Below, one piece after another: positions 3,731 to 36,514 of a stretch of DNA of 52,499 nucleotides. The DNA is taken from assembly GCA_038851035.1 (NCBI GenBank), contig JAWCLH010000020.1:1-52499 (forward strand), given 5' to 3'. The notes beneath the pieces are model-generated. The model worked only from the letters and a program-made list of their open reading frames with translations. It ran no database searches and had not been told where the DNA came from. The position numbers were made by a program, and so were the translations under genes. The first letter of the stretch is position 1; each line of letters opens with the position of its first letter. Source of the DNA: Thermoplasmata archaeon. GTDB taxonomy: Archaea; Thermoplasmatota; DTKX01; VGTL01.

Positions 3731-3743
3731 GCAGGTGGGACCA

Positions 3744-4967: not shown

Positions 4968-5022
4968 TGGTGGGAATCAGGGTCTGAGACTTGAGCGTTG
5001 ATAAAAAGGAGAGGGTGGTTGT

Positions 5023-6300: not shown

Positions 6301-8175
6301 ATGGTCGAGGCAGAGGCGCAGCAGGTGAGCGGGGTGAAGGCCAAGACAAGGCCAGATTATGTCCTCTTCGACAGGGACACCCAGGCCTTTATCTATAACA
6401 TGCAGGTGAACGCGGCCCAGAGGATGCTGGACTTTGACTATGTGGCCCGCAGGCCCACGCCCTCCGTGGCGGCGCTCATAGACCCCACAGGCTCCGATGG
6501 CTACCAAAGATTCTTCTTCGGAACACAGCAGATAATGATTCCGATCTACAAGTCGCTGAAAAGGGCGGCAGAGAAGCATCCGAACGTGGATGTGGTGATA
6601 AACTTTGCGTCCTTCAGGTCCGCCGCTCCTTCGACGGAGGAGGCCCTGAACATCCCGCAGATAAGAACGGTGGTAATAATTGCGGAGGGCGTCCCTGAAA
6701 GGAAGATGAAGCACCTAATAGCACTTGCAAAGAGACTCAACAAGGTGATTATCGGACCTGCAACGGTCGGTGGCGTGGTGGCCGGTGCTTTCAAGATAGG
6801 CAACACTGGTGGAATGCTGGACAATATCATCGAATCAAAGCTCCACCGGCCGGGCTCCGTGGGGTTCGTTTCGAAGTCAGGTGGACTGAGCAACGAGTGC
6901 TACAACATCATCGCCCGCAACACCGACGGCCTCTACGAAGGAATGGCGATAGGTGGGGACCGCTACCCCGGGACCACACTTCTCGACCACCTACTCAGGT
7001 ACGAGAAGAACCCCGAGATCAAGATGCTAGCGGCGCTCGGAGAGGTCGGCGGAGTGGACGAATATGACATCGTCGAGGCTCTGAAGGACGGAAGGATAAC
7101 CAAGCCGCTCGTCATATGGTGCATCGGCACCTGCGCCAAGGCCTTCAAGACCGAGGTCCAGTTCGGGCACGCGGGGGCCAAGGCGGACTCGCTCCGGGAT
7201 ACCGCGGACGCCAAGAACGCAGCGCTAAAGGCGGCTGGGGCGATCGTGCCCAACTCGTTCGACGACTACGGCGATAAAATCAGGGAGGTCTACGAGAATC
7301 TCGTGAAAAAAGGAGTCATAGTCCCAAGGCCCGAGCCGCCCGTCCCGAAGATACCCGTGGACTATGCCGTGGCCCTGAAGACTGGAATGATTCGCAGACC
7401 GGCCAACTTCATCTGTACGATATCGGACGACCGTGGAGAAGAACTTCTCTACGGCAACATGAAGATATCTGAGGTCATAGAGAAGGACATCGGCATCGGT
7501 GGGGTGCTGAGCATCCTTTGGTTCAAGCGCCTCTTCCCTAAATATGCCACGAAGTTCATAGAGATGGTCTTGATGATAACAGCGGACCACGGGCCTGCGG
7601 TCTCTGGCGCCCATAACACTATAGTGGCGGCCAGGGCGGGCAAAGACCTCATATCTTCTCTAGTCTCGGGGATGCTGACCATCGGCCCCAGGTTCGGAGG
7701 GGCAGTGGACGGCGCGGCCCAGATGTTCTCTAGCGCCTTCGACAGAGGCCTCACGCCAAAGCAGTTCGTGGATGAAATGAAGGCCAAAGGCGTGAATATA
7801 CAGGGTATAGGCCACCTTGTGAAATCCATACACAACCCAGATGTGAGGGTCACGCTCATCAAGGGCTACGCAAAGAAGCACTTCAAGGCCACGCCGATTC
7901 TGGACTACGCCCTCGAGGTGGAGAAGATAACCACGGCCAAAAGGGACAACCTTATCCTGAACGTGGACGGCTGCATAGGCGTGTGCTTCGCAGACCTGCT
8001 TAGGAACGAGATGGGCAAGGAGGAGGCGGATGAATACATCAATATGGGCGCGCTGAACGGCCTTTTCGTGCTCGGGCGCAGCATCGGCCTCATGGCGCAC
8101 TACCTCGACCAGAAGAGGCTCAAGCAGGGCCTGTATAGGCATCCGTGGGAAGACATCCTCTATCTTAAGGAGTAA
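6301..8175 (+). CDS. aclA: ATP-citrate lyase, catalytic CoA-ligase/citrate-synthase-like subunit
   Basis: Large subunit of ATP-citrate lyase, 624 residues. Residues about 20-330 form the CoA-binding/ligase part with the phosphorylated histidine His290 in FGHAGAKA. Residues about 345-624 form a citrate-synthase-like lyase domain. Candidate catalytic residues there are Asp429-His430 (ADHG), His505 (GIGH) and Asp556 (LNVDG). The C-terminal [17 protein letters not shown] is nearly identical to eukaryotic ACLY as I recall it. All catalytic residues appear intact, so the enzyme should be active. It abuts aclB without a gap, with a GGAGGGA ribosome site inside the aclB end. It converges with the hdrA fusion 55 bases downstream. 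No separate citrate synthase gene is in the window. Confidence 0.97.
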
Positions 8176-8230
8176 GGTGACCCTAGGGGGGAGGGAGCAG
8201 GGAATTCGCCAATCCCCATTCAATATAGCG

Positions 8231-11200
8231 CTACTTCCGGTAGGGGTTAGGTCCTAGCTCCTTTACCTCCTGCACCATCTCCCGCATGACCTCGGCAAAC
8301 CGCTGGCCCTCCGAGGCAGATATCCATTCCAGCCTGAAGCGCCCTTCCTCGAGGCCCAGGTCCTGAAGCATCAGTTTGATTGCCTCGGCTCTCTGGGCCG
8401 CCTTTTTATTCCCGTCCAGATAGTGGCAGTCGCCCGGGTGACAACCGCAGATGATGACCCCGTCCGCACCGGAGGTCAGGGTCTCGATGACGAAGTTGGG
8501 GTGAATCATTCCGGAACACATAACCCTGATGATGCGAACATTTGGGGGGTACTGGAGCCTGGACACACCGGCCAAGTCGGCGCCGGCGTACGAGCACCAA
8601 TTGCAACAGAACGCCACTATGCGGGGCTCGAAGACCTCCGGGGGCGGCTCCACGCACCTCTCTATAGCAGCTTTGGCCTGAGCCATTATCTGATTATAGG
8701 CGAATCCTTTCACATACACCCCCTGCTTGGGACAGGTCGCCATACACACCCCACAGCCTTTGCATATCGCCTCATTGACTTCCACTATCTTCTTGGTCTG
8801 GCCGTCCCTCGTTATCTCCTTCAGCGTTATTCCTTTGAATGGGCAGGGGTCCACACAGTAGGCGCAGCCGTCGCACTTGGTGGCATCAACATATGAAACA
8901 TTTCCAGAGAGCCTTATCTCCCCTTGCATTATGGGAATGGCGGCTCTGGAGGCTGCGCCTTCGGCCTGGGCAATCGTGTCCGCGAGGTTCTTGGGGTAGT
9001 GGGCGCTGCCGCATATGTAGACCCCATCCGAGGAGAAGTCCAGGGGCCTGATTTTGGCATGGGCCTCGGTGAAGAAGTTGCCCAGCCCCGCGGGGACCTT
9101 GAAGAACTGCTTGATCTGCTCCGTGGCGACGTTGCCCTCGGTCTCGGCCGTCAGAACCACAAGGTCCGCCGGTAGGATATATTCGTCGCCGTAGACCGCG
9201 TCAACCACTTTCACCTTCACATTTCCTCTTGCGTCAACCTCGACTTCCGGTCCCATCTCGGGTAGGTAGCGGATAATTTTAACCCCATACTTCTCTATGA
9301 CATCAGCGTAGTACTCTTCCTCTTCCTTCCCGAAGACTCTGATGTCTCTGTAGAGAAGAGTTATCTCAGCACCCGGATTGTGCTGACTCAGCAGCTTTGC
9401 ATTCTTTATCGCCACTCCACAGCCGATGCGGCAGCAGTAGGGTCTCAGCTCGTCCATGGAGCCTGCACAGTTTATCACCACCACGCTCTTCACTTTCGGC
9501 ACGTTCTCCTCTTTGAGCATTCGTTCGAGCTGGAGCTGGGTGATTATCTTTGGGCTCTTCCCGTATGAATACCTCCCTTCCAGATCTATCTCTTTAAACC
9601 CAGTAGCGATAATGGCCGTTCCGAACTCGAGCACCTTCTCTCCCATCGGCGTTCTTACCCGGGCTTTGAAGTTTCCAATGAAGCCCTCAACGTCCAGTAA
9701 CTCCGACTCAGTCAGAACGGTGATCAGCCTCTCCTTTCCCACCCTCACCTTCAGCGGTTCTATTATATCAGAAGCTTTGATGTCCATTGGGAAGAGCGAG
9801 TGGAGGTCGTTCAGGTTCCCGCCGAGCTCTTTGTTTTTCTCGAGAATAATCGACTCTATACCCATCTCCGCGAGCGCCAGCGCAGCTCTCATGCCAGAAA
9901 GGCCGCCACCGATAACGAGAATTCTGGGGGTGACAGGCACGCTCCTCTCTTGGAGCGGCTCGAGCATTGCCGCCTTGGTCACCGCAATCCTGACCAGGTC
10001 CTTCGCCTTCTCCGTCGCTTTATCTGGCTCGTGGGAGTGGACCCAGGAACAGTGGTTGCGGATGTTTGCCATCTCGAACAGGTACTTGTTCAAGCCCGCC
10101 TGGACCAGCGTCTCCTGAAAAAGAGGGCCATGGGTACGGGGGGAGCAGGCCGCCACAACGATTCGATTCAGAGCCATTTCATTTATCTTCTCCTTTATTT
10201 TCTTCTGGACGTCTTGGGAGCAAACGAACATGTCGTGGTCCGCGAAGACAACATTTGGAAGAGTCTTTGCATATTCCGTTACAGCAGCCACATCGAGGTA
10301 GCCAGCGATGTTTTTACCGCAGTGGCATATGAAAACTCCTATGCGGGGCGGCTCCCCGACCACGTCCCTTTCAGGGGGCAACTCAGGCCGGGCGGCCCTC
10401 TTTCTTCTCACAATCGGAACTATCGCTCTGGCGGCGGCCCCGCTGCCCATCGAGACGCTATCTGGAATGTCCTTGGGACCCTGGTTGCAGCCAGCCAAGA
10501 ATACTCCCTCTCTTGTGGACTGGGTAGGGTTGGAAAGAATATCGGCTGACCTGAAGAACCCGCTCTCGTCCACCTCGATTTCCAATATCCTAGCCAGCTT
10601 TCGGTTGTCCTTGGAAGGAACGATGGCCGTGGAGAGAACCAGCAGGTCAACCGTTTTCTCCCTGAGCTCTCTTGTATGTGTGTCAAGATAGCGAACAGTT
10701 AAGCTCTTGTCAGGGTTCTGGTAGACAGAGGAGGGCCGGGCCCTGATGAAGTTCACCCCGAGCTTTTTCGCATTCTCGTAGTATTGCTGGAAGTCCTTTC
10801 CGAAGGCCCTCATGTCCATGTAGAATATCGTGACGTCCGTGGAGGGGTCGGCTTCCTTCGTTATTGAGGCTTCTTTGGTTGCGTACATGCAGCAGACGCG
10901 GGAGCAGTAGGGGAACCCCAGCTGCTTGCTCCGGGAACCGACACACTGTATCCAAGCTATCGACTTCGGTTTTGCGCCATCGGAGGGCCTTAGAATCTTG
11001 CCTTCGGTTGGTCCGAAGGAGGATAGCAGCCTCTCGTATTGCATGGCCGAGATGACGTTCGGGTACTTTCCGTAGCCGTACTCCCTCCTCATCTCGAGCG
11101 GCTCGAAGAGCTCGAAGCCTGTGGCGACGACTACGCTTCCGATATTGACCTCGATATCCTCCGACTTCTCGAGGAAGGATATCGCCTTGGGCTCGCATAC

Positions 11201-11848
11201 CCTCTCGCAGGAGCCGCATCCCGTGCAATGCTCGTAATCTATTGTGTAGACGATTGGCACAGCCTGCGGGAACTCGATGTATATGGCCTTCCTCTTCGAG
11301 AGTTTCTCATCGAAGGGATTGATAACCTCCACAGGACAGACGGCCGCGCAGTCTCCGCAGCCTGTGCACCTCGACGGGTCGACGTATTTGCTCTTCCTGA
11401 AAATGTGAGCCGTGAAGTTGCCCACCGCCCCGTCTAGCTTAGCAAGCTCAGCATAGGTTATGAGTGTGATATTAGGATGCCTCGCGACCTCTACCATCTT
11501 TGGGGCGCAGGTGCATATCGAGCAGTCGTTCGTCGGGAAGGTCTTGTCGAGTTTGACCATGTTGCCCCCAATGGTCGAGGACTTGTCTATCACGATTACC
11601 CTGAAGCCCTTGTCGGCGATGTCTATGGCCGCCTGCATTCCCGTGATTCCGGCGCCCACAACAAGCACATCGCCCTCGAGGATTTTCTTCTTTCTCCGGA
11701 AAGACATCTCCGAAACAATTCTAGGAGTGGTCTCAAACCTCGGCGTGGCGTCGAGGTGTTTCAGCCTCTCGGGCAGCTCGACGCAGTAGTCCTCCTCAAA
11801 GGGAACGTCCTCGTAGTAGCGCCAGATTATCTCACTCGGCCCTGGCAT
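8231..11848 (-). CDS. hdrA: HdrA-HdrA-MvhD fusion (flavin-based electron-bifurcating heterodisulfide-reductase-type subunit)
   Basis: Giant 1205-residue soluble flavoprotein. In order: a first HdrA-type FAD domain (GAGITG near 62; CSIC near 109), an inserted two-cluster ferredoxin (about 157-225), then a second, complete HdrA beginning near residue 505 with its own ICHCGKN iron-sulfur domain, a second FAD domain (GGGLSG near 643), a C-terminal two-cluster ferredoxin (about 985-1040), and an MvhD/FlpD-type domain from about 1075 (CCNWCSYAG, CSGM, GCHPGDC). In methanogens HdrA is the bifurcating flavin subunit and MvhD links it to hydrogenase or formate dehydrogenase. The second flavin domain lacks the CSIC-type cysteine pair, so the halves probably differ in role. 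It is last in the operon, overlaps korG by 17 bases and has a GGAGGCAGG ribosome site. The electron donor is not encoded here. Confidence 0.92.
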   Translation of the reverse strand: MPGPSEIIWRYYEDVPFEEDYCVELPERLKHLDATPRFETTPRIVSEMSFRRKKKILEGDVLVVGAGITGMQAAIDIADKGFRVIVIDKSSTIGGNMVKLDKTFPTNDCSICTCAPKMVEVARHPNITLITYAELAKLDGAVGNFTAHIFRKSKYVDPSRCTGCGDCAAVCPVEVINPFDEKLSKRKAIYIEFPQAVPIVYTIDYEHCTGCGSCERVCEPKAISFLEKSEDIEVNIGSVVVATGFELFEPLEMRREYGYGKYPNVISAMQYERLLSSFGPTEGKILRPSDGAKPKSIAWIQCVGSRSKQLGFPYCSRVCCMYATKEASITKEADPSTDVTIFYMDMRAFGKDFQQYYENAKKLGVNFIRARPSSVYQNPDKSLTVRYLDTHTRELREKTVDLLVLSTAIVPSKDNRKLARILEIEVDESGFFRSADILSNPTQSTREGVFLAGCNQGPKDIPDSVSMGSGAAARAIVPIVRRKRAARPELPPERDVVGEPPRIGVFICHCGKNIAGYLDVAAVTEYAKTLPNVVFADHDMFVCSQDVQKKIKEKINEMALNRIVVAACSPRTHGPLFQETLVQAGLNKYLFEMANIRNHCSWVHSHEPDKATEKAKDLVRIAVTKAAMLEPLQERSVPVTPRILVIGGGLSGMRAALALAEMGIESIILEKNKELGGNLNDLHSLFPMDIKASDIIEPLKVRVGKERLITVLTESELLDVEGFIGNFKARVRTPMGEKVLEFGTAIIATGFKEIDLEGRYSYGKSPKIITQLQLERMLKEENVPKVKSVVVINCAGSMDELRPYCCRIGCGVAIKNAKLLSQHNPGAEITLLYRDIRVFGKEEEEYYADVIEKYGVKIIRYLPEMGPEVEVDARGNVKVKVVDAVYGDEYILPADLVVLTAETEGNVATEQIKQFFKVPAGLGNFFTEAHAKIRPLDFSSDGVYICGSAHYPKNLADTIAQAEGAASRAAIPIMQGEIRLSGNVSYVDATKCDGCAYCVDPCPFKGITLKEITRDGQTKKIVEVNEAICKGCGVCMATCPKQGVYVKGFAYNQIMAQAKAAIERCVEPPPEVFEPRIVAFCCNWCSYAGADLAGVSRLQYPPNVRIIRVMCSGMIHPNFVIETLTSGADGVIICGCHPGDCHYLDGNKKAAQRAEAIKLMLQDLGLEEGRFRLEWISASEGQRFAEVMREMVQEVKELGPNPYRK

Positions 11849-12371
11849 TCAGTCCTGCCTCCAGCCCTTTCTCGAAAGCCTGTAAATTCAGCTCAGCAAA
11901 CCGTTTTGGAACGCTGTCTAGTACAGCTTTCCTTACGGCGTCTGGTTCTAGCAATTTATATACCCCAGTAATCCCGCCGACCATGGCGATATTTGTCACT
12001 ATCTTGTTGCCTAGGCTCATGGCTATTCTCTGTGCTGGTATCTTGTATACGCCCCTCCCTATGTCATGCTCTGGAACTAGGTCCGGCTCAACGATGACCA
12101 CAGTGTCGTTCCTTATGTCTTTCTTATAGGTGTTGAAGGCCTCCTGGGCCATTGCGACAAAGAGGTCCAAACTCGTGGGTCTCGGATATCCTATCTTCTC
12201 GTCGGAAATAATGACCTCCGCCCTTGCGGCCCCACCTCTAGCCTCCGGGCCGTAGGACTGGCTCTGGACGGCGTTATAGTTGGAATAGACGCAGGCGGCC
12301 TTCCCCAGAATCACCCCGGCCAGGATTATTCCCTGTCCCCCGAAGCCGCTGATGCGTATCTCTTTCCTCAT
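11832..12371 (-). CDS. korG: 2-oxoglutarate:ferredoxin oxidoreductase, gamma subunit
   Basis: Gamma subunit (179 residues) of a 2-oxoacid:ferredoxin oxidoreductase. The N-terminal ISGFGGQGI and the YGPEARGG segment are signatures of the family's gamma domain, which helps bind CoA and hold the complex together. It lies between korB (stop and start overlap by one base, TAATG) and the hdrA fusion. A GGAGGG ribosome site precedes its ATG. The D-A-B-G gene order and the TCA context favour 2-oxoglutarate as substrate, but branched-chain or indolepyruvate enzymes share this fold. In the reductive cycle it would carboxylate succinyl-CoA using reduced ferredoxin. Confidence 0.92.
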   Translation of the reverse strand: MRKEIRISGFGGQGIILAGVILGKAACVYSNYNAVQSQSYGPEARGGAARAEVIISDEKIGYPRPTSLDLFVAMAQEAFNTYKKDIRNDTVVIVEPDLVPEHDIGRGVYKIPAQRIAMSLGNKIVTNIAMVGGITGVYKLLEPDAVRKAVLDSVPKRFAELNLQAFEKGLEAGLNARAE

Positions 12372-13255
12372 TACTTACCCTCCTTCGCCCACCTTGCATC
12401 GTCTTCCGCTATCAATCTCTGGATGAGCCTGTCGTTCCTCTCGAAGAAGCCCTCTTTCCTCACATTCTGGAACACCCCGATTTGGAACTTGCCCCTGACC
12501 ATCTCCTTTTCCTCCTCCGTACCGTAGGTCATTATCCTCTCGTAGTCCTCGACAAGAATTGAGTGCTCCTCGTACCACCGCCAAAGCACGTCCACATCTC
12601 CCATCTTATTATTCCTTCCAAAAGCGGTGGGGCAGGGGGACATAAGCTCTATGAGAGCGAAGCCCTTGTTCATTATCCCCTCCTTGATTGATTTGATTGG
12701 CTGGTATGGGTAGTGAATGGGCCATCTTGCCACGTATGCCGCGCCCAGTGCCTTGGCGAGCTCACAGATGTTGAAAGCGTCCTCAATATTGCCGTAGGGT
12801 GCAGTTGAGGCGATACTTCCCAGTGGGGCGGTCGGAGCCAACTGGCCTCCTGTCATCCCATAGATGAAGTTGTTCAGCAGGATGACGGTGATGTCTATAT
12901 TCCTCCGCGCGGCGTGGATGAAGTGATTCCCGCCTATGCCGATCCCGTCACCATCACCCGTAAACACGATAACGGTTAGGTCGGGGTTGGCCGCTTTCAG
13001 GCCGGTGGCGAACGCAAGCGCCCTTCCATGAGTGGTGTGGAGGCCGTCGGCGTTGAGGTAGCCCGGAATTCTCGAGGAGCAGCCGATTCCCGAAGCGAAG
13101 GCGACTTTGTCCATATCGAGTCCTAACTCATCAATGGCGCGGAGAACATAGTCTATGGCAGAGCCGTGGCCACAGCCAGCACAGAAAATTGTCGGCAACA
13201 TTCCCTTGCGCAGGTATTTCTGCCTCAACTTCTCACCATCAATGATATCGGTCAT
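12371..13255 (-). CDS. korB: 2-oxoglutarate:ferredoxin oxidoreductase, beta (TPP) subunit
   Basis: Thiamine-diphosphate-binding subunit, 294 residues. CAGCGHG near residue 21 supplies iron-sulfur ligands seen in the family's beta subunits. The TPP/Mg motif is GDGDGIGIGGNH, followed by a stretch ending in NN and then YGMTGGQ. It binds TPP and carries out the carboxylation or decarboxylation chemistry with the alpha subunit. The beta subunit ends about 290 residues in, as usual for Kor/Vor-type enzymes. Its ATG lies three bases after the korA stop, with GGAGGG in front of it. The substrate is inferred from context, not from a residue I can point to. Confidence 0.93.
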   Translation of the reverse strand: MTDIIDGEKLRQKYLRKGMLPTIFCAGCGHGSAIDYVLRAIDELGLDMDKVAFASGIGCSSRIPGYLNADGLHTTHGRALAFATGLKAANPDLTVIVFTGDGDGIGIGGNHFIHAARRNIDITVILLNNFIYGMTGGQLAPTAPLGSIASTAPYGNIEDAFNICELAKALGAAYVARWPIHYPYQPIKSIKEGIMNKGFALIELMSPCPTAFGRNNKMGDVDVLWRWYEEHSILVEDYERIMTYGTEEEKEMVRGKFQIGVFQNVRKEGFFERNDRLIQRLIAEDDARWAKEGK

Positions 13256-26002: not shown

Positions 26003-27145
26003 TCACCTCCTTCCCGGTCTCTTGAAAAACCCCCTCCTCTCCCCGACCTCCTCCCCCTCCTCCCTCGCGAACTCCCTTAGAATTTCCTTCTGACGCTCGC
26101 TCAGCCGGGTGGGGGTGACCACTCTGACCCTGACGTAGAGGTCCCCCCTTCCCCCGCCGCCGAAGCGGGGCATCCCCTTACCCTGTAGCCTAAAGAGCGT
26201 GTGGGTCTGGGTGCCTGGAGGAATCGTCAGGCGCGCGGTGCCGTTCAGGAGCGGAATATCGATCTCACCTCCTAGTGCGGCCTGAACAAATGAGATGTCA
26301 GCTTCAGTGTAGAGGTCGTTCCCATCCCGTTTGAACCTCTTGTGCGGTGCGACATGCAGGACGACAAACAAATCACCGGGCGGACCACCCCTCCTCCCAG
26401 CCTCGCCGCCTCCGGGCACGCGCAGCCTTATGCCCGAGTCAGCGCCGGGCGGGATCGTAATCCGGATGGTCTCCTGCTTCGAGACTGCCCCCGCGCCTCG
26501 GCAAACGCTACAGGGCTTATCAATAACCGTCCCCTTTCCACCGCAGGCGTCACAGGTCGTGATGGTGATCAGCTGGCTGTAGCCTCGGGACCGGACGCTC
26601 CTCACCTGACCGGAGCCGTCGCATCTCGAGCACTTCCGGGGCGACGAGCCTCTCTCCGCGCCGGTTCCGCTGCAGGCTGAGCATGGAGCGGTTCTCGGAA
26701 TGGTGATTTCCTTCTCCATTCCGCTCGCAGCCTCCTCGAGGGTGATCTCGAGGTCGTAGCGCAGGTCGTCGCCCGGCACCGGCCCCGTCTGGGGACGCCT
26801 GTACCTGCCGAAGAAGTCGAACCCGAAGAACCCCAGGTCGCCGAATATGTCTTCGAGGTCTGCGAAGTGGGAGAACTGGTCCCAGGTGAACCCGCCCTCG
26901 CCGAAGGTCTGTGAGACACCAGCGTGGCCATAGGCGTCGTAAAGCCTGCGCTTTTCTGGGTCAGCCAGCACCTCGTAGGCCTCGCAGACCTCTTTGAATC
27001 TCTCCTCTGCCTCCTTCGGGTTGTCCTTGTTCAGGTCTGGGTGGTACTTCTTGGCGAGGGCGCGGTAGGCCCTCTTGATTTCTTCAGTGCTGGCGTCCCT
27101 CGAGACACCCAGCATCTCATAGTAGTCCCTCTTCTCCCCCGCCAC
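26003..27145 (-). CDS. dnaJ: Chaperone protein DnaJ
   Basis: A full-length type I Hsp40 of 380 residues. The J domain is at 5-70 with the HPD motif ([12 protein letters not shown]). A short G/F-like region follows. The zinc-binding domain (about 145-215) has four CxxCxGxG-type motifs: [24 protein letters not shown] and CSVCRGAG. The C-terminal substrate-binding domain ends in a basic tail. It delivers unfolded proteins to DnaK and stimulates its ATPase. No dnaK or grpE gene is in the window; in archaea the DnaK system is often acquired from bacteria. The start is GTG with GGTGAGG seven bases upstream. It lies between the parvulin and the thermosome. Confidence 0.95.
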
Positions 27146-27348: not shown

Positions 27349-29004
27349 CTAGTCATAGTCGCCCATGCCGCCGCCCGTGCCGCCCGCTCCGCCCGGAGGC
27401 GCCCCGCCCGGTGGGCCCTTGGTCGCCTTGGCTGCGATTATGTCGTCGATTCTTAGTATCATCACCGCAGCCTCGGTGGCGGAGAGGATGGCCTGCTTGT
27501 CGACCCGCAGGGGTTCTATCACGTTGAGCTTCTTCATGTCCTCGACCTTGCCGGTGAAGACATTCACCCCCGCGCTCTTCTCCTTGTTCTTGTGGGCCTT
27601 GCGCAGGTCTATCAGCACGTTTATTGGGTCGAGGCCGGCGTTCTCCGCGAGCGTCCTAGGGACAACCTCAAGGGTGTCGGCGAAAGCGTCTATTGCAAGC
27701 TGCTCCCTCCCGCCAACACTGGCAGCGTAGTCCTTGAGGGCGAGAGCGAGCTCGGCGTGTACGGCCCCGCCGCCGGGCAGAACCTTGCCATCTTCGATGG
27801 CGACGGCGACGACCCTCGTGGCGTCCTCTAGGGACCTCTCGAGCTCGTCCACGACGTGCTCCGTCCCTCCCCGTATGAGTATGGAGACCGCTTTGGCCTT
27901 CGGGCAGCCGGTGACGAAGGTCATCTTGTCCTCGCCTATCTTCCTCTCCTCGACCAGACCGGCGCGGCCCAGGTCGTCCTTTGAGAGGTCGTTCAGGTTA
28001 GTGACGATTCTGCCTCCCGTGGCCCGCGCTAGCTTCTTCATGTCCGACTCCTTCGCCCTTCTGACCGCCAGTATTTTCTCCTTGGCAAGATAGTACTGAA
28101 CGAGGTCATCGATGCCCTTCTGACAGATGACAACATTCGCCCCCGACTTCTTTATCAGCTCGACCTTCTTCTTCAGCATGTTCTCTTCCTCAGCAAGGAA
28201 GGCCTGGAGCTGGTCGGGCGAGGTGATCTCAATCTTGGCCTCGACCTCGGTCTTTTTGACCTCAAGGGCGCAGTCGAGGAGAGCGATCTTTGCATCCTTC
28301 ACGCTCTTGGGCATGTTAGCGTGGACGACCTCCTTGTCCAGTATGATTCCATCAACGAGCTCGGTGTCGCTGACGCTCCCGCCATGCTTCTTGACCACGA
28401 GGAGGCTGTCCTTGTCCACGACATACTTGCCGTCGCGTTCCTCGGCGATGCTAGTCACGGCCTTCACAGCGATTTCAGCGAGCTTCTCCCTGTAGGCCGC
28501 GCCGCCCTTGCTGGCCATGGAGGTCATCGCGATCTTCTTCAGAACCTCCTTGTCGTTTATGTTTACCTTCTCCGCAAGCTTTTCCAGAATTTCCGTCGCC
28601 TTGTCTGCCGCCATCCTGAAGCCGCCCGTGATTATTGTCGGGTGGACGTTTTGTTCAATCAGCTCCTCCGAGCGCTTGAGCAGCTCACCTGTGAGGATCA
28701 CCGCGGTCGTGGTTCCGTCGCCGCATTCTTGGTCCTGCGTCTTTGCCACCTCGACCAGCATTTTGGCGGCTGGATGCTCGACGTCAATCTCCTTAAGTAT
28801 GGTCACGCCGTCATTCGTGATTACGACGTCTCCCATAGAGTCAACCAGCATCTTATCCATTCCTCTCGGGCCAAGAGTGCTCTTAACCGCGTCCGCTATG
28901 GCGCGGGCGGCAGCGATATTGCTACTCTGGGCACCCCTGCCCTTCTCCCTCTGAGTCCCTTCCTTCAGCACCAGAATTGGCACGGTTCCTCCCTGTCCCA
29001 TCAT
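27349..29004 (-). CDS. thsA: Thermosome subunit (group II chaperonin)
   Basis: A 551-residue archaeal chaperonin subunit that forms double rings and folds proteins with ATP. Nucleotide-binding segments are [18 protein letters not shown] (about 42-60), [15 protein letters not shown] (about 95-109) and [11 protein letters not shown] (about 410). The C-terminal tail is rich in glycine and methionine, [19 protein letters not shown], as usual for thermosomes. The start has two ATG codons in a row with GGAGGTG six bases before, a strong ribosome site. A clear TATA box lies about 55 bases before the ATG. Only one subunit gene is in the window; others may lie elsewhere. Confidence 0.98.
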
Positions 29005-29058: not shown

Positions 29059-29079
29059 TATAAATATTTAACTTTCAGC
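29059..29079 (-). promoter_or_regulatory. TATA/BRE promoter of the thermosome gene
   Basis: On the - strand GAAAGT (BRE-like) is followed by TTAAATATTTATAG, a strong archaeal TATA box. It overlaps the stop codon of the upstream RING-like gene. Transcription would start near 29040, leaving a leader of about 35 bases. Confidence 0.65.
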
Positions 29080-31188
29080 TCCCTTTCCCCATCTCCGGCC
29101 GCAGACGGGGCACGCCTCCCCCGCTCCCGTGCAGTGTTCGTGAAACAACCTTCCGCAGGAGCAGAGGAAGGCAACGTTTCCCCGCGCGATTCTGCGCCCG
29201 CAGAGCGCGCAGTCCCTGCTTAGCTCAAGCGCGACACGGCGCGGCACGAGCTCTGAATCGCGCTGGGCTCCAGCGGGGACTTCCTGCGGTCCAAGCTGAA
29301 GCCCCTCCACAACCGCCTCCCCTTCGGCCGTCCTTCGCGTGTTTATGAAGGCAATAAGAAAAAAGAATATGAGAGTTATGTTAATAATGACTAGGCCAAG
29401 GAAGCAGCACAAGTCGGTCTCTGGACTAGTAGCGAGGGGGGTCTGGACCCTAAAATATTCTTGGTGCTCGATGCCGCTCTCTGTTTCGTTGCTGATAGTT
29501 AATATAAGCGTCGCATTTGTACCTGGCTTAAGATGAATGGGCAGGGGGATTTCAGCAGAAAAGGACCCCTCCTCGTCCGGGCCCACTAGGTTCCAAGAAA
29601 ACGTGGACCACGTCTGCCATGCCCCATCACCCCCACCGGCGCCGTCCAGGGCCAGATGCGCGCTGACGCTTTGAAGGTCCTTGCCAGGTGCGGAGACGGT
29701 AACCTTCACTTTTCCACCAGGATAGGCCCTCGAGAGCTTAGTATGGAGGCCCCCGAAGAGCGTATCGTCGGGTTGGGACGAGCTTATGAAATCGTAGGCT
29801 CCAGAGGTGTACCCACCGCTCTCCGGCCGTGGGAGCGGGTTTTTAAAATAGATGGTGATGAAGGAGCTCTCCCCTGGAGGCATCGTGAGGTTCAGGGAGA
29901 ACCCTCCTTGCCCGTCTGTTTGCACCTTCACACACTCCACGTTCGATGAAACCAGCATAGAACCTCCATACCTCTTCGAAGTCACAAAGCACTTGAGCTC
30001 TGTCGAAGCCAGTGGCCTGCCATAGGAAAAGGCGCGGTAGGTAGCGCAAAGGCTCTCGCCCGGGAGTAGGCTCAGTGGGGGTTCTCGGCGGAGAGGGACG
30101 ACGGTGAAGTCGCTAGTAGATGGGACGTAAAAAGAGCCCTCACCCGGCCCCGCAATCCGTCCTGAGAATCTCTGTGAGAAGCGACTCGTATTGGCCCAAC
30201 CAAAAATGTAGTACCCGTCCCCTACGGGCGGTATGGGAAGGGAGCCCCTGACCCTCCCCTTCGCGTCCGTCTTGCCGAGCCCGAACATGGTCTCGCTACC
30301 GCTCGCTCCCGGCGCGCTCACCCTAAGGACCACCTCTGCGCCCCTGACCGGAGACCCCCCCCAATCGGATACAAACAGCTCGAACTTCTTTAGGCCAGCA
30401 TCCATGCCCAGCTCATGATAAATTACTGTGAAAAAGTCCATGCATATCCACGCACCGGTCTGTAGCTCGTGTTCCGCCCCAGGCACCACAGCATATAGAT
30501 AGAAGCGATCGTCGTGTTTTAGTGAGGGTATAGTGAAGTTGATCTGATAGATTCCCGGAGCGATTTTTGTGTGTTCGGCGGTGTAGCTACTCGGCTCCCC
30601 ATTCAGGGGACTATGGTGCATGGCGAAGCGAACCCCCTCAATGTCCACCAGTTCCGCGCCCCGGGTTATGCAGCAGAGGAAGGTGGCGTGGCTGCCCGGC
30701 TTGGGAAGTGGTGAGGAGAGTCTGAGGAGCCACGCCCGGGCGCGGAAGCCCTCAAGAGTTTCATCCGTTGTATTCCTACTAATGGAGACGGTTATGTATT
30801 TGGAGGCAGAGTTCAGAGCGCTCCCCTGAAAAACCCCGGTGCTGTGGGATGCTCTTACGACAATTTCGACCTCTCCATAACGGTTTGCGTGGGAAGCCAC
30901 CATTGTGTAGCAGAAATTGTAGATGCCCGGTGAGCTATTTTGGACGGGGAGCGGAATGTTGACATCATAGACCCCGCCCACAACCCAGGCCTCGATGGGG
31001 CGGTCGAAAGAGGCCCTCACGCCGTCAATGAATGTATAGACCGTGAAGTTTGCGCTCTCGCCTGGGCTCAAAACGCTCACGCTTGAGATCACGAACATAT
31101 CTAGCTCAGGTGCCTCAGCGGCGGCTGTGAGGGGATACGTCAGCGGAATGAGGATGAGCGCCACTGCCCAGGGAACAACGAATCTCAT
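29068..31188 (-). CDS. Membrane protein with beta-rich ectodomain and C-terminal C4HC3 (RING/PHD-like) finger
   Basis: A 706-residue protein with a signal peptide (about 1-24), a beta-rich extracytoplasmic part with several Ig-like modules, one transmembrane segment (about 603-623) and a short cytosolic end. The end carries a zinc finger: Cys660, Cys663, Cys676, Cys678, His683, Cys686, Cys693, Cys696, spaced C-x2-C-x12-C-x-C-x4-H-x2-C-x6-C-x2-C. That pattern resembles RING/PHD-type cross-brace fingers, including prokaryotic RING families. The next gene upstream (31216-33753) is a paralogue: FSQRFSG, FTVIYH and a WQTWS segment have counterparts there. It lies 27 bases after it and is the last gene of its operon. 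Its job is unknown; a link between the surface and a cytosolic protein-modification system is possible. Confidence 0.8.
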   Translation of the reverse strand: MRFVVPWAVALILIPLTYPLTAAAEAPELDMFVISSVSVLSPGESANFTVYTFIDGVRASFDRPIEAWVVGGVYDVNIPLPVQNSSPGIYNFCYTMVASHANRYGEVEIVVRASHSTGVFQGSALNSASKYITVSISRNTTDETLEGFRARAWLLRLSSPLPKPGSHATFLCCITRGAELVDIEGVRFAMHHSPLNGEPSSYTAEHTKIAPGIYQINFTIPSLKHDDRFYLYAVVPGAEHELQTGAWICMDFFTVIYHELGMDAGLKKFELFVSDWGGSPVRGAEVVLRVSAPGASGSETMFGLGKTDAKGRVRGSLPIPPVGDGYYIFGWANTSRFSQRFSGRIAGPGEGSFYVPSTSDFTVVPLRREPPLSLLPGESLCATYRAFSYGRPLASTELKCFVTSKRYGGSMLVSSNVECVKVQTDGQGGFSLNLTMPPGESSFITIYFKNPLPRPESGGYTSGAYDFISSSQPDDTLFGGLHTKLSRAYPGGKVKVTVSAPGKDLQSVSAHLALDGAGGGDGAWQTWSTFSWNLVGPDEEGSFSAEIPLPIHLKPGTNATLILTISNETESGIEHQEYFRVQTPLATSPETDLCCFLGLVIINITLIFFFLIAFINTRRTAEGEAVVEGLQLGPQEVPAGAQRDSELVPRRVALELSRDCALCGRRIARGNVAFLCSCGRLFHEHCTGAGEACPVCGRRWGKGAES

Positions 31189-31215
31189 GCCGATCTCACT
31201 CGGAGGGGTTTAAGG

Positions 31216-33753
31216 TCAGGAGACCAGCTTAGTCCTGCAGGATATACAGCTCTCGATCATTCTGGCGCACTGCTCGTGGTAGCACTTCCCGCAGGAGCAG
31301 AGGAGCGCGCTACCCCCCTGCAACATCCATTGGTTGCAGAAAGCACAGACGGTATTGTTGGGCAGGGTGACCGCCCTTGCTCCTTGCGGAGCGGTGGGAG
31401 GCTGGGGGGCCGCGGCCGGTATGACGGGAGTAACAGAGGGCTGGGGGCTCGGCGCGGGGGCCTGGGCCACCGGAGTCTGGACCTGGGCCTGCGGATAGTA
31501 TCCGGGAGCGGGCGTTGGCTGTGTCTGATACAATTGCTGGGGGGTTCCGTAGGGCGGCTGCTGCGGGTAGGGGGGAGGAGGATACAGGGGGACCTGACCG
31601 TACTGATAGGGATAGCTGGGAGGGGGCTGCGCGATGGGGGGAAACGGAGGTGGCTGGGGCTGAGAGGGCTGCTGGTAGAGCTGGGTAGGGGTTTGCGCGG
31701 GCGAGGGCGGCTGTGTGGGCTGGGGTTGGTACTGGGGTTGTGCCTGAGGTGCAGCCGAAGGGCCGGGCGGAGGTGCGGGACCCTGCGGAAAAGCAGAAGG
31801 CTCGATGCTGGCCGGTGTCACCTGCGTCGGAACAGGTATTGTCTCGGGAGCGGGCTTCGCTCTCTTCCTCTTTATCGCCACGGCCGCGACGGCAATGATT
31901 ATGATTATGAAGAGCAGGGCGATACCTATGAAAAGCATCGGGAGCGCGACTCCCGCGCCCGTTCCCTGGCTTTGTGTTCCCTGACCAGGCTTCAGGCTTG
32001 CGAAGCCATATGTGAAACCTTCCTCTCCCTCCGTAGCCATACCGACCGTGTATGTGAGGTCTTTTGGCATGAAGGATGGTATGAGCACGGAGCCGGGGTA
32101 GGTGCTCCCGCTCTTTGTTGCAAATCCAGATATCTGGCTCCAGACCTGCCAGTTGGGGTCCGCGCTCATCTCCATCGGGTCTGTGATTGCCCCTATAGCC
32201 CACCCCGTCGTCGCCACGGGGGGGTCGCTGGCGCGCGCGGTCGCGGTAATTTTGGTCGGGGAGCCTAGATTGAGCGTCTCAACTTTGACCTCCATCGTTC
32301 CCGTAAGAATATTGCCGGCCCAAAAGCTATCACTGTCCTCGGAGTAGTACTTTCCATCTAGGCTGTCGTGGTCCGAATCCCAGCCATCGGGCTTTGGATG
32401 CTCGCCCGTGGCGCTCTCGAACTCGACATTGTAGAAAGTGCTCTTGCCCGGGGGAGGCGACAGAGTCAGCTTCAATTTTCCAGAAGAGTCGGTGGTCAGG
32501 ACTTTCGCCTCCACGGCGCTCAATGAGGGCATTAAGAATTGGCTCAGGTCAAAAGTTCCGGATTTAATGTAGCAGTAGATCTCCTTTTCACCCCAAGGTC
32601 TAGAATTGTTGAAGACTACATATTCTCTAGTTAGGCTCTGGCCCGGTTTGTAGCTCTTTTCAGGCCCTCCAAATACCACCTCGAACTCCTCGCTCGATGG
32701 GTGAGGGGTGCCCGTCTTGTCGCGGAGCTGGATTTCACCGGAGAACCTCTGGCTCTTTCCGCTCGCATTGGCGTAGCCGGTGATGTCGAGGCTTTCTGAG
32801 CCCCTGTCATACTGCAGCGTTACCCTTGCCTTGCCGTTGTCGTCAGTGAATCCCGCATCCACCCACCTTGGCTCCCAGCTGTCCTCGTCGTCGTACCCTA
32901 GGTCGATGTGGGCCCCTTTGACTGGCTTCCCGTCGCTCCCGGCGATGTAAATCTCGAAAGTGGTCTCCGTTATTCCTCTGCTTATGTTGTGGTAAACCAC
33001 TGTAAAATGATTGTATTGGACGGAAACGGAGTCCTCCCTATCATTTCCATGGTAATTTGCCACAGCCTTGAACCTGAAATCGGTGCTGTATGGAAGATCC
33101 GGGATGGTGTAGGCCTCGCTCTCGTAAATCCCCTTTGAAGGGTTTGTATAGGCCAGATAGTCCGTTTCGTCTTCGCCCTCGTCATTCTCGTAGGTGACAG
33201 TCAGGTCGAACGAGCTGGGTGTTACAGCGGTGCCGTCGTCCGTGACCTCCGCCGCCACGACAACCTTGGTCCCTGCGTGAAGAACGCTGTCAGAAACAGA
33301 TTTCAGCCAGCACCGGACCTCTAGACCGGCTCCTCTCGTGGTGGGAGGCCATATCATGACGCTATCAGTATCCTCGTTGTAGGTGGTGTCGGTATCGTCG
33401 GACTTGCCAAACGTGGCAGTAGCGGAGATGGAGGCAAAGCCCCACCTGAAGTCCTCGCTCTGAATCGTGAATATGCCCTGATAGACACCCTCGGATACCC
33501 GGCTCACTGGGATTTCTCGGGAGGGATAAAAGCCAATCTCCACCTCAGGCGTAGAGTCCGCGTCCCTGTGTACTCCTTTGTCGAAGACGTGCACCGTGAC
33601 TTTCCCGGAGGTGCCAACGGAGTAGTCCTTGTCCTCGACCAGGACGACCACCTTGAGCGAATCATTATCTCCTATAGCTGCCGGAAAAAGAAGGGCGGAT
33701 ACCGTCATTAGCATCAGCACAATCACCGCGAGGACTCTGCGCATCATCTTCAC
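31216..33753 (-). CDS. Membrane protein with beta-rich ectodomain, Pro/Gln-rich linker and C4HC3 finger
   Basis: An 845-residue paralogue of the next gene. It has a signal peptide (about 1-28), an acidic beta-rich ectodomain (about 30-610), one transmembrane segment (about 625-648) followed by KRKR, a cytosolic Pro/Gln/Tyr-rich linker of about 130 residues with low complexity, and a zinc finger. Ligands are Cys803, Cys806, Cys819, Cys821, His826, Cys829, Cys836 and Cys839, with spacing identical to the paralogue. The linker reads as a flexible arm holding the finger away from the membrane. A GAGGGTGAAG stretch contains the GTG start counted here; ATG 33747 is the alternative. No enzymatic motif is visible. 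Confidence 0.8.
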   Translation of the reverse strand: MKMMRRVLAVIVLMLMTVSALLFPAAIGDNDSLKVVVLVEDKDYSVGTSGKVTVHVFDKGVHRDADSTPEVEIGFYPSREIPVSRVSEGVYQGIFTIQSEDFRWGFASISATATFGKSDDTDTTYNEDTDSVMIWPPTTRGAGLEVRCWLKSVSDSVLHAGTKVVVAAEVTDDGTAVTPSSFDLTVTYENDEGEDETDYLAYTNPSKGIYESEAYTIPDLPYSTDFRFKAVANYHGNDREDSVSVQYNHFTVVYHNISRGITETTFEIYIAGSDGKPVKGAHIDLGYDDEDSWEPRWVDAGFTDDNGKARVTLQYDRGSESLDITGYANASGKSQRFSGEIQLRDKTGTPHPSSEEFEVVFGGPEKSYKPGQSLTREYVVFNNSRPWGEKEIYCYIKSGTFDLSQFLMPSLSAVEAKVLTTDSSGKLKLTLSPPPGKSTFYNVEFESATGEHPKPDGWDSDHDSLDGKYYSEDSDSFWAGNILTGTMEVKVETLNLGSPTKITATARASDPPVATTGWAIGAITDPMEMSADPNWQVWSQISGFATKSGSTYPGSVLIPSFMPKDLTYTVGMATEGEEGFTYGFASLKPGQGTQSQGTGAGVALPMLFIGIALLFIIIIIAVAAVAIKRKRAKPAPETIPVPTQVTPASIEPSAFPQGPAPPPGPSAAPQAQPQYQPQPTQPPSPAQTPTQLYQQPSQPQPPPFPPIAQPPPSYPYQYGQVPLYPPPPYPQQPPYGTPQQLYQTQPTPAPGYYPQAQVQTPVAQAPAPSPQPSVTPVIPAAAPQPPTAPQGARAVTLPNNTVCAFCNQWMLQGGSALLCSCGKCYHEQCARMIESCISCRTKLVS

Positions 33754-33785: not shown

Positions 33786-34730
33786 CTATCGCTGCTGCAT
33801 TTTTAGCCCCGGGGTGGTCCACCGCTCCCCCGCCGAGTATTGCACTGGCGGCCCGGTCGGCCCCTTCCCCTCCCTCCGCTCGAGCCTTTCTCTTAGTCGG
33901 GACGCACCGCCAATAGCGGCCGCGGCTCCAAGGAGCACTAGAGACACTCCGAGAAGGGCAACTATCCTTTCAGTGTCGGGGCCGAGCAATGGTCCCCCTC
34001 CAGAGAAGCGGCTGTATTTTTTAAGAGTAATTATACTCAGCACGCCTGAGGCCGCATCGTACGTCTCCACCTTCACATCGCCCCTGACTTTCTCAGAGTA
34101 CCAATAGTTCGTATAATTGCCCGAACCCTCCTCCGTGCAGTTAACGAGGAATGCTGTGTAATTTGTCTTTCCGATTTTGATGGTGCCAGCCCAGCCGCAG
34201 ATGTAGTTGATGGTAAGGCAGTGCTCCGAGACTCTCCTCACCCCCTCCCAGACCTCAATACGCGTCACATTGAACCAGGACCTCCAGCTCCTATTGAGCG
34301 CGAGGGGGAAGAGGTAGCGGCCGTCTGAGGGGGTGTAGGTCAAGGTGAGCTCCGCCATGGAGCGCAGGGAGCCACTGGTGACCTCAATTGTGCTTCTCGA
34401 TTGAATTGTGCAGAGGGTGGCTTTTGCAACATAAATCCTAGAAACTGTTGTCCTCGTGTAGGTCTCACTCATCTCTTTCTTTTTGAGTGAGAGAATGTAT
34501 ACGCTATGAGTTTCATTGCCCGTCCTCAGCCTTCCCTCACCGGTAACGGAGACACTCATGTTTCCCCTGAGCGTTTCATATGGGGACTTCGTGAGTGTCG
34601 TATAGACCCATGTGTCGCCCGCCACCCATCTGGGCAGCCTGAACTCCTCAGCCCCCGTCACAGGTGTAACTGAAGGAATCATGAGGGCTACGATGATTAC
34701 GACACTTGCCCTTTTCATCCCTGCTAACAT
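33786..34730 (-). CDS. Secreted or membrane-anchored protein, unknown function
   Basis: About 314 residues from ATG 34730, with a signal peptide (about 1-28), a Ser/Thr- and NxT/S-rich extracytoplasmic domain that is mostly beta, a transmembrane segment near the C-terminus (about residue 245-270) and a basic cytosolic tail. Several N-x-S/T sites suggest glycosylation. I place the start after the stop of the zinc-ribbon gene; an upstream in-frame start would overlap it. The two RING-like genes follow 32 bases later. Family unknown. Confidence 0.7.
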   Translation of the reverse strand: MLAGMKRASVVIIVALMIPSVTPVTGAEEFRLPRWVAGDTWVYTTLTKSPYETLRGNMSVSVTGEGRLRTGNETHSVYILSLKKKEMSETYTRTTVSRIYVAKATLCTIQSRSTIEVTSGSLRSMAELTLTYTPSDGRYLFPLALNRSWRSWFNVTRIEVWEGVRRVSEHCLTINYICGWAGTIKIGKTNYTAFLVNCTEEGSGNYTNYWYSEKVRGDVKVETYDAASGVLSIITLKKYSRFSGGGPLLGPDTERIVALLGVSLVLLGAAAAIGGASRLRERLERREGKGPTGPPVQYSAGERWTTPGLKMQQR

Positions 34731-34744
34731 CGGCTCATTTTGTC

Positions 34745-36514
34745 TCACTTTCTGAGCACTCCCTCCTTTCCGCAGCTGGGGCACTTGACCTGAATTGGCC
34801 TTCGAATCTCCGTGACCGGGAAAACGGTTCTGCACCCGGGGCACGATATCATTTTAGGTGGGACGGATGGCGGAGGAGCCGCGGCGGGGGGCTGAGTTGT
34901 GACGGGAGGGGGTGGAAAGGGTGCCGGCCCGGCCGCCTGCGCGGTTGAGGGAGTCGCGGGCGTAGGCGCGGGAATAGGGGCCTGTGGCGCCGGCGCAGCC
35001 CTCTTTCCTATCGTCCCCTCCTTTCCGCAGAAGGGGCACTTCACTTGCTGGGGTCCCTCGGCTTTGTCTATTTGAAACGCCTGTTTGCAGCGGGGGCACG
35101 CGATTGTTCTTTTCTCGACGGCGGAAGGCGGTGGGGGCGGGGGGGCCTCGTAACGGGGCTCATATTGGGGGGCCGGGTAGTGGGGAATGGCCGCGGGCGA
35201 CTCCCCTGCGGGGTGGTAGACGGGCGCGGAAGGGGGAGCGGGGGGCGGCGGGGCCATATGGACGGTTTCCGGCTCGGTAGGGGCGGTGTAGGCCTGTGGA
35301 GCTGCCGGGGTAGGTGGTGTGGACGCGGCCAAGGATTCCTGAGCGATCCCCGGAGCCGGAGCTGTAGCCGGTGCAGTCTGGACTGGCGGGGGGACTCCCG
35401 CAAGGGTTCCTTCCTTCCCGCAGGTCGGGCAGCGAATTCTGGTCGGTCCGGTGCCGCGGAAAACCTCGAAGCGCGTGCCACAGCGCGGACAGTCTATCGG
35501 TTGCTTCACGCCCGTGGCGGGTGGTTCCGCGACCGAGGGGGGGACGGGCGTGGCGGGAGCGAAACCCGGGGCTCCAAGGGGCCCTGCGGGGGCTATCATC
35601 CTTTCCGGTGCTACAGGCGGCTGGGAGGGCGCGGGTGCCGCGCCAGGGACGCGAATCTGCGGAGGCGCGGCAGGCGCGAGAGCTTCTTTCCTTGCTCGTG
35701 AGCGCAAATAGACCACCCATCCGCTGACCGCAGCAATGTACATAAGCAAAAAGAGGACGATGGAGATGGAGAGCTCGTCGAAAGTTCTTTGGAGAATCGT
35801 GTACTGAATTCTTGCCTCCTCATCACCTTCGTTCTCTACGATGAGAGTGTAGCTGCGCGCCTCGAGCTCCGTCCCCCTGTAGACGTACCGGGTGGTGTTT
35901 TCTGCGTGGTCGTAGCTGGCCGTAGCCACACTCCTGTCGCTTTCATAGGCCTCGGCGTCCTCCCTGAGCATTAGAAAATAGTTGAGGGATACATTATTCA
36001 AGGATCTGACAGTCACCTCACTCCTCGAGACATCGAGGGGATCGCGTCCTTGGAAGTGAAGCTTGACAAAGCTCCCGCCCGAGACTGTGGTGACACCTTC
36101 TGTGGCGAGGGCGGCCTCGAGATAATTGTCGCCGGGCGACAGCGGCACGAGGGGGAGGAAGAAAACCAGGCCGATGAGGAACAGTATTATCCAGACGAGG
36201 CCCGTTCTTACGTAGCGGGATGTCATGCGGGGCCTCTCCTGAGGGGGCACGAGCGCAAGCAGCTTTGATTTGAAGTAGGCACCCGCGGCGATGGAGGCGA
36301 TGCCGAAGACTAAAGGGGCAAGAAGTGCCGGATAGATTGGGATGGAAAGCGGGTCTGTTCTGAAGTCTTTCGAGAGGCGAGCGAGCAGGGCGAATAGGAT
36401 GAGGGCGGCGACAGAGAATATAATAAAAACAGCGAGCCTCCTCCTCTTCAATTTAGTCATGGCCCAATCGCGCTGGAGCTCAGACTCATCCCCGTGGAAC
36501 CTGCTTGTTATCAT
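34745..36514 (-). CDS. Membrane protein with three cytosolic zinc ribbons on Pro/Ala-rich linkers
   Basis: A 589-residue protein. Two transmembrane segments (about 27-47 and 57-77), a third (about 103-123), an extracytoplasmic beta domain (about 130-240) and a fourth segment (about 250-272) precede a long Pro/Ala-rich cytosolic part. Three zinc ribbons are strung along it, each C-x2-C-x16-C-x2-C followed by GKEG: CPRC...CPTC, CPRC...CPFC and CPGC...CPSC. The ribbons resemble each other closely, as after recent duplication. I start it at ATG 36514 because GAGAAGGG lies five bases upstream; the in-frame TTG 36529 is part of that ribosome site. It is first in a four-gene operon with the RING-like proteins. 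Confidence 0.78.
   Translation of the reverse strand: MITSRFHGDESELQRDWAMTKLKRRRLAVFIIFSVAALILFALLARLSKDFRTDPLSIPIYPALLAPLVFGIASIAAGAYFKSKLLALVPPQERPRMTSRYVRTGLVWIILFLIGLVFFLPLVPLSPGDNYLEAALATEGVTTVSGGSFVKLHFQGRDPLDVSRSEVTVRSLNNVSLNYFLMLREDAEAYESDRSVATASYDHAENTTRYVYRGTELEARSYTLIVENEGDEEARIQYTILQRTFDELSISIVLFLLMYIAAVSGWVVYLRSRARKEALAPAAPPQIRVPGAAPAPSQPPVAPERMIAPAGPLGAPGFAPATPVPPSVAEPPATGVKQPIDCPRCGTRFEVFRGTGPTRIRCPTCGKEGTLAGVPPPVQTAPATAPAPGIAQESLAASTPPTPAAPQAYTAPTEPETVHMAPPPPAPPSAPVYHPAGESPAAIPHYPAPQYEPRYEAPPPPPPSAVEKRTIACPRCKQAFQIDKAEGPQQVKCPFCGKEGTIGKRAAPAPQAPIPAPTPATPSTAQAAGPAPFPPPPVTTQPPAAAPPPSVPPKMISCPGCRTVFPVTEIRRPIQVKCPSCGKEGVLRK

Follow-up and report, generated by a model that had tools for sequence, protein, structure and literature searches.

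Paired RING-finger membrane proteins as candidate E3-like partners of a ubiquitin-like system in a Thermoplasmata archaeon

Introduction

Archaeal ubiquitin systems with small RING proteins have been described chiefly from Caldiarchaeum and Asgard archaea (PMC5654768, PMC6043591), and a survey of 2014 noted partial ubiquitin-system components in one marine group II euryarchaeote (PMC4327156). In Caldiarchaeum subterraneum the RING protein srfp, of RING-H2 type (C3H2C3), is linked to genes for E1, E2, ubiquitin and a JAMM peptidase within a compact operon (PMC5654768, PMC6043591), and its residue I30, a predicted E2 contact, is required for activity (PMC5654768). Our literature search, in which few subscription journals were covered, found no paper on a ubiquitin system of the Thermoplasmatota, and an earlier description is possible. 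The closest layout among membrane proteins is that of the eukaryotic PA-TM-RING E3 ligases (RNF13, ZNRF3/RNF43 and plant RMR1), which combine a signal peptide, a folded PA ectodomain, one transmembrane (TM) helix and a cytosolic C3H2C3 RING finger.

Here we describe two adjacent archaeal genes, P1 and P2, the products of which are predicted to share the PA-TM-RING order of signal peptide, folded ectodomain, one TM helix and cytosolic RING, and to differ in having a macroglobulin-like ectodomain and C4HC3 ligands. This likeness is one of analogy and not of homology between whole proteins; as they have no PA domain, P1 and P2 are not members of that family.

Results and discussion

P1 and P2 lie on the minus strand of a 52,499-nt stretch of DNA (the whole stretch analysed, hereafter the window), with P2 transcribed first and P1 following after a gap of 27 bp. 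The features of both genes are as follows.

29068..31188, minus strand: P1, a 706-aa membrane RING protein (open reading frame; paralogue of P2; finger-bearing orthologue in the related genome G001 at L107 230-2344)
29101..29211, minus strand: P1 RING-like finger, residues 660-696, CALCGRRIARGNVAFLCSCGRLFHEHCTGAGEACPVC (own-genome profile match, E 3e-15)
29212..29343, minus strand: P1 cytosolic linker, 44 aa
29344..29400, minus strand: P1 membrane helix, residues 597-615 (hydropathy; RR directly after)
29401..31116, minus strand: P1 ectodomain (homology to the P2 ectodomain)
31126..31182, minus strand: P1 signal segment, residues 3-21
31216..33753, minus strand: P2, an 845-aa membrane RING protein (open reading frame; orthologue in G001, 47% identity)
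31237..31347, minus strand: P2 RING-like finger, residues 803-839, CAFCNQWMLQGGSALLCSCGKCYHEQCARMIESCISC, then R840 (model pLDDT 85.7; best 50 Foldseek matches RING)
31348..31878, minus strand: P2 Pro/Gln-rich disordered arm, 177 aa (low pLDDT in the full-length model)
31879..31935, minus strand: P2 membrane helix, residues 607-625 (hydropathy; placed at 612-629 by the full-length model)
31936..33666, minus strand: P2 ectodomain, tandem macroglobulin-like beta-sandwiches (model; Foldseek E 1e-14; weak Pfam MG4)
33679..33735, minus strand: P2 signal segment, residues 7-25

A sequence-only reading of this DNA had proposed two paralogous membrane proteins at 29068-33753, each with a signal peptide, an ectodomain, one membrane segment and a cytosolic finger. 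Both open reading frames are present there and are paralogous (26% identity over 609 residues, E 1.4e-35), and hydropathy predictions agree with the proposed layout, each protein having a hydrophobic signal segment at its N-terminus and, at about residue 600, a single membrane helix with basic residues after it. Since positive residues follow the single membrane helix, the fingers, which end at most 10 residues from the C-terminus, are predicted to be cytosolic. They had been called identical, which is correct for the ligand spacing, C-x2-C-x12-C-x-C-x4-H-x2-C-x6-C-x2-C (C4HC3) in both, but not for the sequence, in which 16 of 37 residues are the same. A search of the window in six frames for exactly this pattern gave two matches, as against none in 100 codon-shuffled windows. 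The Pro/Gln-rich arm noted before the finger of P2 is also present, its length being 177 residues (56 Pro and 30 Gln) instead of 130. Along this arm (31348-31878) we observed a pair of PPxY-like motifs, at residues 711 and 726, as well as several of the form P[ST]xP.

The full-length model of P2 (mean pLDDT 75, pTM 0.57) comprises several beta-sandwiches, the TM helix, the disordered arm and the finger. The ectodomain fold matched macroglobulin domains of complement C4, C5 and C3 and of A2ML1 in Foldseek searches (E ~1e-14, with a low global TM-score). Tandem macroglobulin-like beta-sandwiches are thus what these proteins have in common with the complement/alpha-2-macroglobulin family, from which P1 and P2 differ in having neither a thioester domain nor a CGEQ motif. 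No relative was found with full-length P2 as the query against the contigs of named genomes.

The C4HC3 ligand order is common to PHD and RING-CH fingers. The P2 finger was modelled by AlphaFold from a 41-sequence alignment as a structure without metal, giving a RING beta-beta-alpha fold with a mean pLDDT of 85.7. The best 50 Foldseek matches of this model in the PDB were all RING domains, mostly of E3 ligases and with RNF13 first; their probabilities were 0.85-1.00 and their E-values 0.01-0.1 (none below 0.001), modest values that we attribute to a domain of only 51 residues. A profile of the finger family matched the PDB sequences of RNF4 (2.7e-7) and Arkadia (1.8e-6), with weak matches to XIAP and BIRC7 and a further match to the Pygopus PHD finger. 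The ligands follow the cross-brace order and their spacing lies within RING limits except for the x4 before the histidine, which is x2 in RING-H2 fingers. The suggestion of a RING-like fold is borne out by these matches, and the question set beforehand, whether the domain is a cross-brace or two separate zinc knuckles, is answered by a predicted fold that matches cross-brace RING domains; separate knuckles were rejected on the model and its fold matches. P1 and P2 thus very probably carry RING-type fingers at the cytosolic face.

A finger of PHD type, or another treble clef, that serves some unrelated binding function would account for the ligand order, for weak PHD matches in four of the 41 fingers and for the Pygopus match. 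We nevertheless regard it as highly improbable, given that six residues separate ligands 6 and 7, where a PHD finger usually has a longer spacer, and that only RING domains stand among the best 50 fold matches. A PHD finger in the strict sense was rejected on the same spacing (at least 12 residues expected before ligand 7), on the lack of the aromatic residue in P1 and P2 and on the fold search. RING-CH/MARCH membership was likewise rejected, there being no RINGv match for P1 or P2, a single TM helix where at least two are expected, and a different spacing.

Comparison with prokaryotic RING families was made through Pfam. Among the 41 fingers, zf-RING_2 was matched by 36, Prok-RING_1 (PF14446) by 32 (best E 4e-16), PHD weakly by four and zf_UBZ by one. 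The profile search proposed in the sequence-only reading thus connects the family with prokaryotic RINGs, several other members from the phylum exceeding the Prok-RING_1 cut-off of 29.1 bits, but leaves P2 (13.6 bits) and the P1 finger (17.2 bits) below it. The best Prok-RING_1 match among the relatives was a coiled-coil protein of family f24.

In IAP-type RINGs a six-residue spacer separates ligands 6 and 7, and the domain lies at the C-terminus of its protein. P1 and P2 have both properties in common with XIAP and BIRC7, the weak profile matches above, and differ from them in ligand order (C4HC3 as against C3HC4) and in being membrane proteins and not cytosolic ones. The E2-contact position (X in C1-x-X-C2) is occupied by L662 in P1 and F805 in P2, and by I, V, L or F in 44 of 48 family fingers; in our reading this is the position of I30 in C. 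subterraneum. The linchpin position directly after the last ligand (C8+1) is R840 in P2 and Gly in P1, which has R at C8+2; across the family it is Gly in 33 of 48 fingers, and about half carry K or R at C8+2. P1 and P2 therefore resemble srfp in the hydrophobic residue between the first two ligands and, for P2, in a basic residue after the last ligand; they lack the helix Trp on which the C. subterraneum RING depends.

As the sequence-only reading had stated, no gene for a ubiquitin-like protein (Ubl), an E1 or an E2 was recognised within the window. The genome search that it had advised did find such genes, on contigs C3 and C47. When the 2.69-Mb genome was searched with the finger profile, five proteins were retrieved: P1, P2, two on C3 and a weak one on C2. 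The two on C3 belong to an apparent operon coding for a membrane RING protein (971 aa, PKD/Ig/cadherin-like), an E1, a giant coiled-coil RING protein (3155 aa), a Ubl, an E2 and a JAMM peptidase, both RING proteins bearing the finger at the C-terminus. Pfam cut-offs were exceeded by the E1 (ThiF, 161 bits), the E2 (UQ_con, 55 bits, with HPN and a catalytic-type Cys) and the JAMM peptidase (JAB, 41 bits, with a TM helix), and the E2 profile matched UBE2A in the PDB (2e-15). The Ubl (104 aa, ending in GGG) remained under both relevant cut-offs (YukD 23 bits, ubiquitin 17 bits), and it is assigned from its place in the operon, its conserved GG end and an alignment across the phylum. With GG-ending Ubl, E1, E2, JAMM and RING genes clustered, the C3 locus has the make-up of an archaeal ubiquitin operon of the C. 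subterraneum type. The P1/P2 locus itself does not adjoin E1 or E2 genes: where srfp is encoded in the compact operon, P1 and P2 are large membrane proteins, and candidate ligases, encoded away from the C3 operon.

The genome holds in addition a second E1-HAD-E2-Ubl set on C47 (L103 7011-9509), which is kept in G001 (L111/L114), a second JAMM gene on C2, and proteasome genes of alpha and beta type. The weak finger on C2 (L104 6127-9387) caps a protein with an M14 zinc carboxypeptidase ectodomain, PKD and NEW3 domains and a TM helix. The gene for the coiled-coil RING protein adjoins that for the E2 in G001, G003 and G004 as well. PADLOC matches (E1-E2, BilD and JAB) were confined to the E1 and JAMM proteins and did not support a reading of these genes as a defence system.

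The presence of a Ubl system, together with the membrane location of P1 and P2, could also suit a reader or sorting receptor that binds the Ubl or ubiquitylated clients instead of an E2, and RING-like fingers are known from eukaryotic sorting proteins. We consider this improbable: a ubiquitin-binding zinc-finger signature is not dominant in the family (zf_UBZ in one of 41 fingers as against zf-RING_2 in 36), and most of the fold matches are RINGs of E3 ligases. For neither the PHD nor the vesicle-sorting alternative of the sequence-only reading was there positive support. Its E3 ligase idea fared better, in that the genome does encode Ubl, E1, E2 and JAMM, and their operon also includes genes for two finger-family proteins; it is qualified by finger-bearing genomes without an E2, described below, and ligase activity is putative.

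In order to follow the system across the phylum, relatives in named genomes were gathered with the E2 alignment as the query, and 80 E2 relatives were kept, all of them from Thermoplasmata, 'Euryarchaeota' or other archaeal metagenome-assembled genomes. Around these 80 E2 genes, a Ubl was found at 74 loci, a JAMM gene at 76 and an E1 gene at 57; the Ubl ended exactly in GG in 45 of 74 cases and the JAMM motif was intact in all 76. Among 390 Thermoplasmatota genomes the finger was present in 89 and an E2 in 82, a Pfam count that takes in a few other E2 types such as Ubl-E2 fusions. Both occurred in 66 genomes, the finger alone in 23, the E2 alone in 16 and neither in 285 (odds ratio 51). The association persisted by genus (41 both, 13 finger only, 11 E2 only, 90 neither; odds ratio 26, p 3e-16) and by family (odds ratio ~25, p 1e-6, with an estimated family total of 54-60), levels that reduce and do not remove the effect of relatedness. 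Three fusion-like single Ubl-E2 proteins were noted (L074 1150-1833, L202 6411-7094 and L077 1441-2157), the first of which matches both ubiquitin and UQ_con in Pfam.

A finger lay within 10 kb of the E2 at 3 of the 80 E2 loci only, and adjacency of finger and E2 as a phylum-wide rule was accordingly rejected; the link at phylum level rests on co-occurrence, and is operonic in the class of the window. In profile searches, the sampled finger-bearing genomes of families f24 (seven, some single-contig), f11 (five) and f35 (two) yielded neither an E2 nor a Ubl or JAMM of the cassette type. The proposition that every finger genome has the cassette was thereby rejected, and at least one use of the finger would be independent of it. 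For G168, G233 and G382 the apparent absence probably reflects a gap in the assembly, as a JAMM or Ubl gene is present there.

Most fingers of the family lie at the C-terminus of large ectodomain proteins, within some 20-60 residues of the membrane helix that precedes them, or in small membrane-anchored proteins of 170-290 aa; others cap coiled-coil proteins of roughly 1,000-3,150 aa. One genome, G041, has 16 finger matches and encodes a 1987-aa protein in which a single TM helix is followed by three fingers in tandem (L110 7805-13765). An FtsZ-type gene neighboured the finger gene at 10 of 13 loci inspected (by motif search, two being confirmed by Pfam), including that of a coiled-coil RING protein of f24. 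In G082 a small membrane RING gene is followed by an FtsZ paralogue, a 102-aa gene and proteasome alpha, and in G121 by a 120-aa gene, proteasome alpha and SBDS- and exosome-like genes, the last two assignments being read from sequence. Small membrane RING genes adjoining an FtsZ paralogue were observed at L199, L200, L063, L066, L067, L069, L071 and L072, and in two genomes they also adjoin proteasome alpha.

The FtsZ-type neighbours favour a further explanation, in which the finger would be a general cytosolic docking module with a RING fold and no E3 function, anchoring diverse membrane and coiled-coil proteins on one partner that they share, such as FtsZ-like filaments or a scaffold. That the finger occurs together with the Ubl cassette would then be due to common descent of gene-rich lineages or to an indirect link. 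The occurrence of the finger without E2, Ubl and JAMM in f24, f11 and f35 is in keeping with such a module, as are the very different proteins that it tops (the M14 carboxypeptidase, for example), the lack of the linchpin in most family members and the zinc ribbons that replace the finger in a paralogue of P2 in G001 (see below). Set against this are the strong association of finger and E2 by genome, genus and family, the fingers inside the E1-Ubl-E2-JAMM operon of the window's own genome, and the retained hydrophobic E2-contact residue, although the latter is also kept in the families without an E2. On balance we find the docking module, the main rival of the E3-like proposal, somewhat unlikely.

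The genes surrounding P1 and P2 that bear on their role are listed here.

26003..27145, minus strand: DnaJ (first gene downstream of the thermosome gene; order kept in G001)
27349..29004, minus strand: thermosome, Cpn60_TCP1 (Pfam 630 bits; first gene downstream of P1; order kept in G001, L107 2400-4070)
33786..34844, minus strand: 352-aa membrane protein, upstream of P2
34745..36529, minus strand: 594-aa membrane protein whose Pro-rich arms carry three MJ0042-like zinc ribbons (the G001 paralogue of P2 has a related tail instead of the finger)

P1 is separated from the thermosome gene by 63 bp, and the latter from the DnaJ gene by 203 bp, all on the minus strand; upstream of P2 follow the 352-aa membrane protein, the three-zinc-ribbon membrane protein and a family B DNA polymerase. 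The sole other sampled genome of the family is G001 (VGTL01, Euryarchaeota archaeon M_DeepCast_200m_m1_298), which belongs to another genus. Its synteny, split over two contigs, runs from the polymerase through the zinc-ribbon protein, the membrane protein, a P2 paralogue, P2, P1 and the thermosome to DnaJ, and both fingers are retained (CGFCNQWLLQGSPGIMCQCGKYYHEHCARIQDTCNAC and CAACARKVARGNAAWRCACGGTFHEHCAAGKGSCPSC). In the P2 paralogue (L105 14805-17612) the tail bears MJ0042-like zinc ribbons where P2 has its RING finger, from which the tails appear to be exchangeable. More distant ectodomain homologues from other families have no finger, with the Pro/Gln arm only (L011, L016 and L017) or neither element (L010, L012 and L015). 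Elsewhere in the window (1796-13255), genes for aconitase, an isocitrate-type dehydrogenase, parts of ATP-citrate lyase, a CoA-ligase/citrate synthase protein, an HdrA-FlpD-like protein and a TPP enzyme look like a reductive TCA gene set.

Taken with a complete Ubl system that has related RING proteins in its operon, the RING tails lead us to propose that P1 and P2 are probably, if with some reserve, membrane-anchored RING E3-like proteins working with the organism's own E2 and Ubl. The proposal draws on the fold, on the operonic relatives in the same genome and on phylum-wide co-occurrence, and the E1, E2, Ubl, JAMM and proteasome genes are all at hand. The hydrophobic residue at the E2-contact position speaks for it as well, as do the small membrane RING genes that sit among proteasome and exosome genes in two sampled genomes. 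A strict E3 reading is opposed by the E2-less finger families, by a linchpin Arg in P2 only, by the missing helix Trp, by the distance of P1 and P2 from the E1 and E2 genes, by their scores under the Prok-RING_1 cut-off and by the many finger genes that neighbour FtsZ paralogues. The RING fold is well supported; E2 binding, ligase activity, substrates, sensing and a part in quality control are inferred.

On the E3-like proposal, the finger would recruit an E2 charged with the GG-ending Ubl and help to pass the Ubl on, either to substrates on the inner face of the membrane or to the tail of P1 or P2 itself. The flexible Pro/Gln arm could lend the P2 finger reach, and the ectodomain would sense or bind envelope clients. 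The JAMM peptidase would reverse the Ubl mark, and the proteasome may be an end point for marked proteins. The location of P1 and P2 beside the thermosome and DnaJ genes suggests a role in envelope protein quality control.

Conclusions

P1 and P2 would, by analogy, work like a membrane RING ligase of receptor type, an architecture otherwise familiar from eukaryotes. It is conceivable, and we put it forward tentatively, that the Thermoplasmatota evolved receptor-like transmembrane RING ligases, in which an ectodomain and one helix precede a cytosolic RING controlling Ubl tagging at the cell surface, independently of the PA-TM-RING family. A phylum distinct from Caldiarchaeum and the Asgard archaea bears a compact, widely conserved E1-Ubl-E2-JAMM cassette, and its set of RING proteins is expanded and includes many that combine a large ectodomain with a membrane segment. 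If proteins of the P1/P2 type are ligases, membrane-linked control of the ubiquitin type would not be a eukaryotic invention, and the receptor-like reading, if true, would mean that a prokaryotic ubiquitin system serves envelope signalling or quality control.
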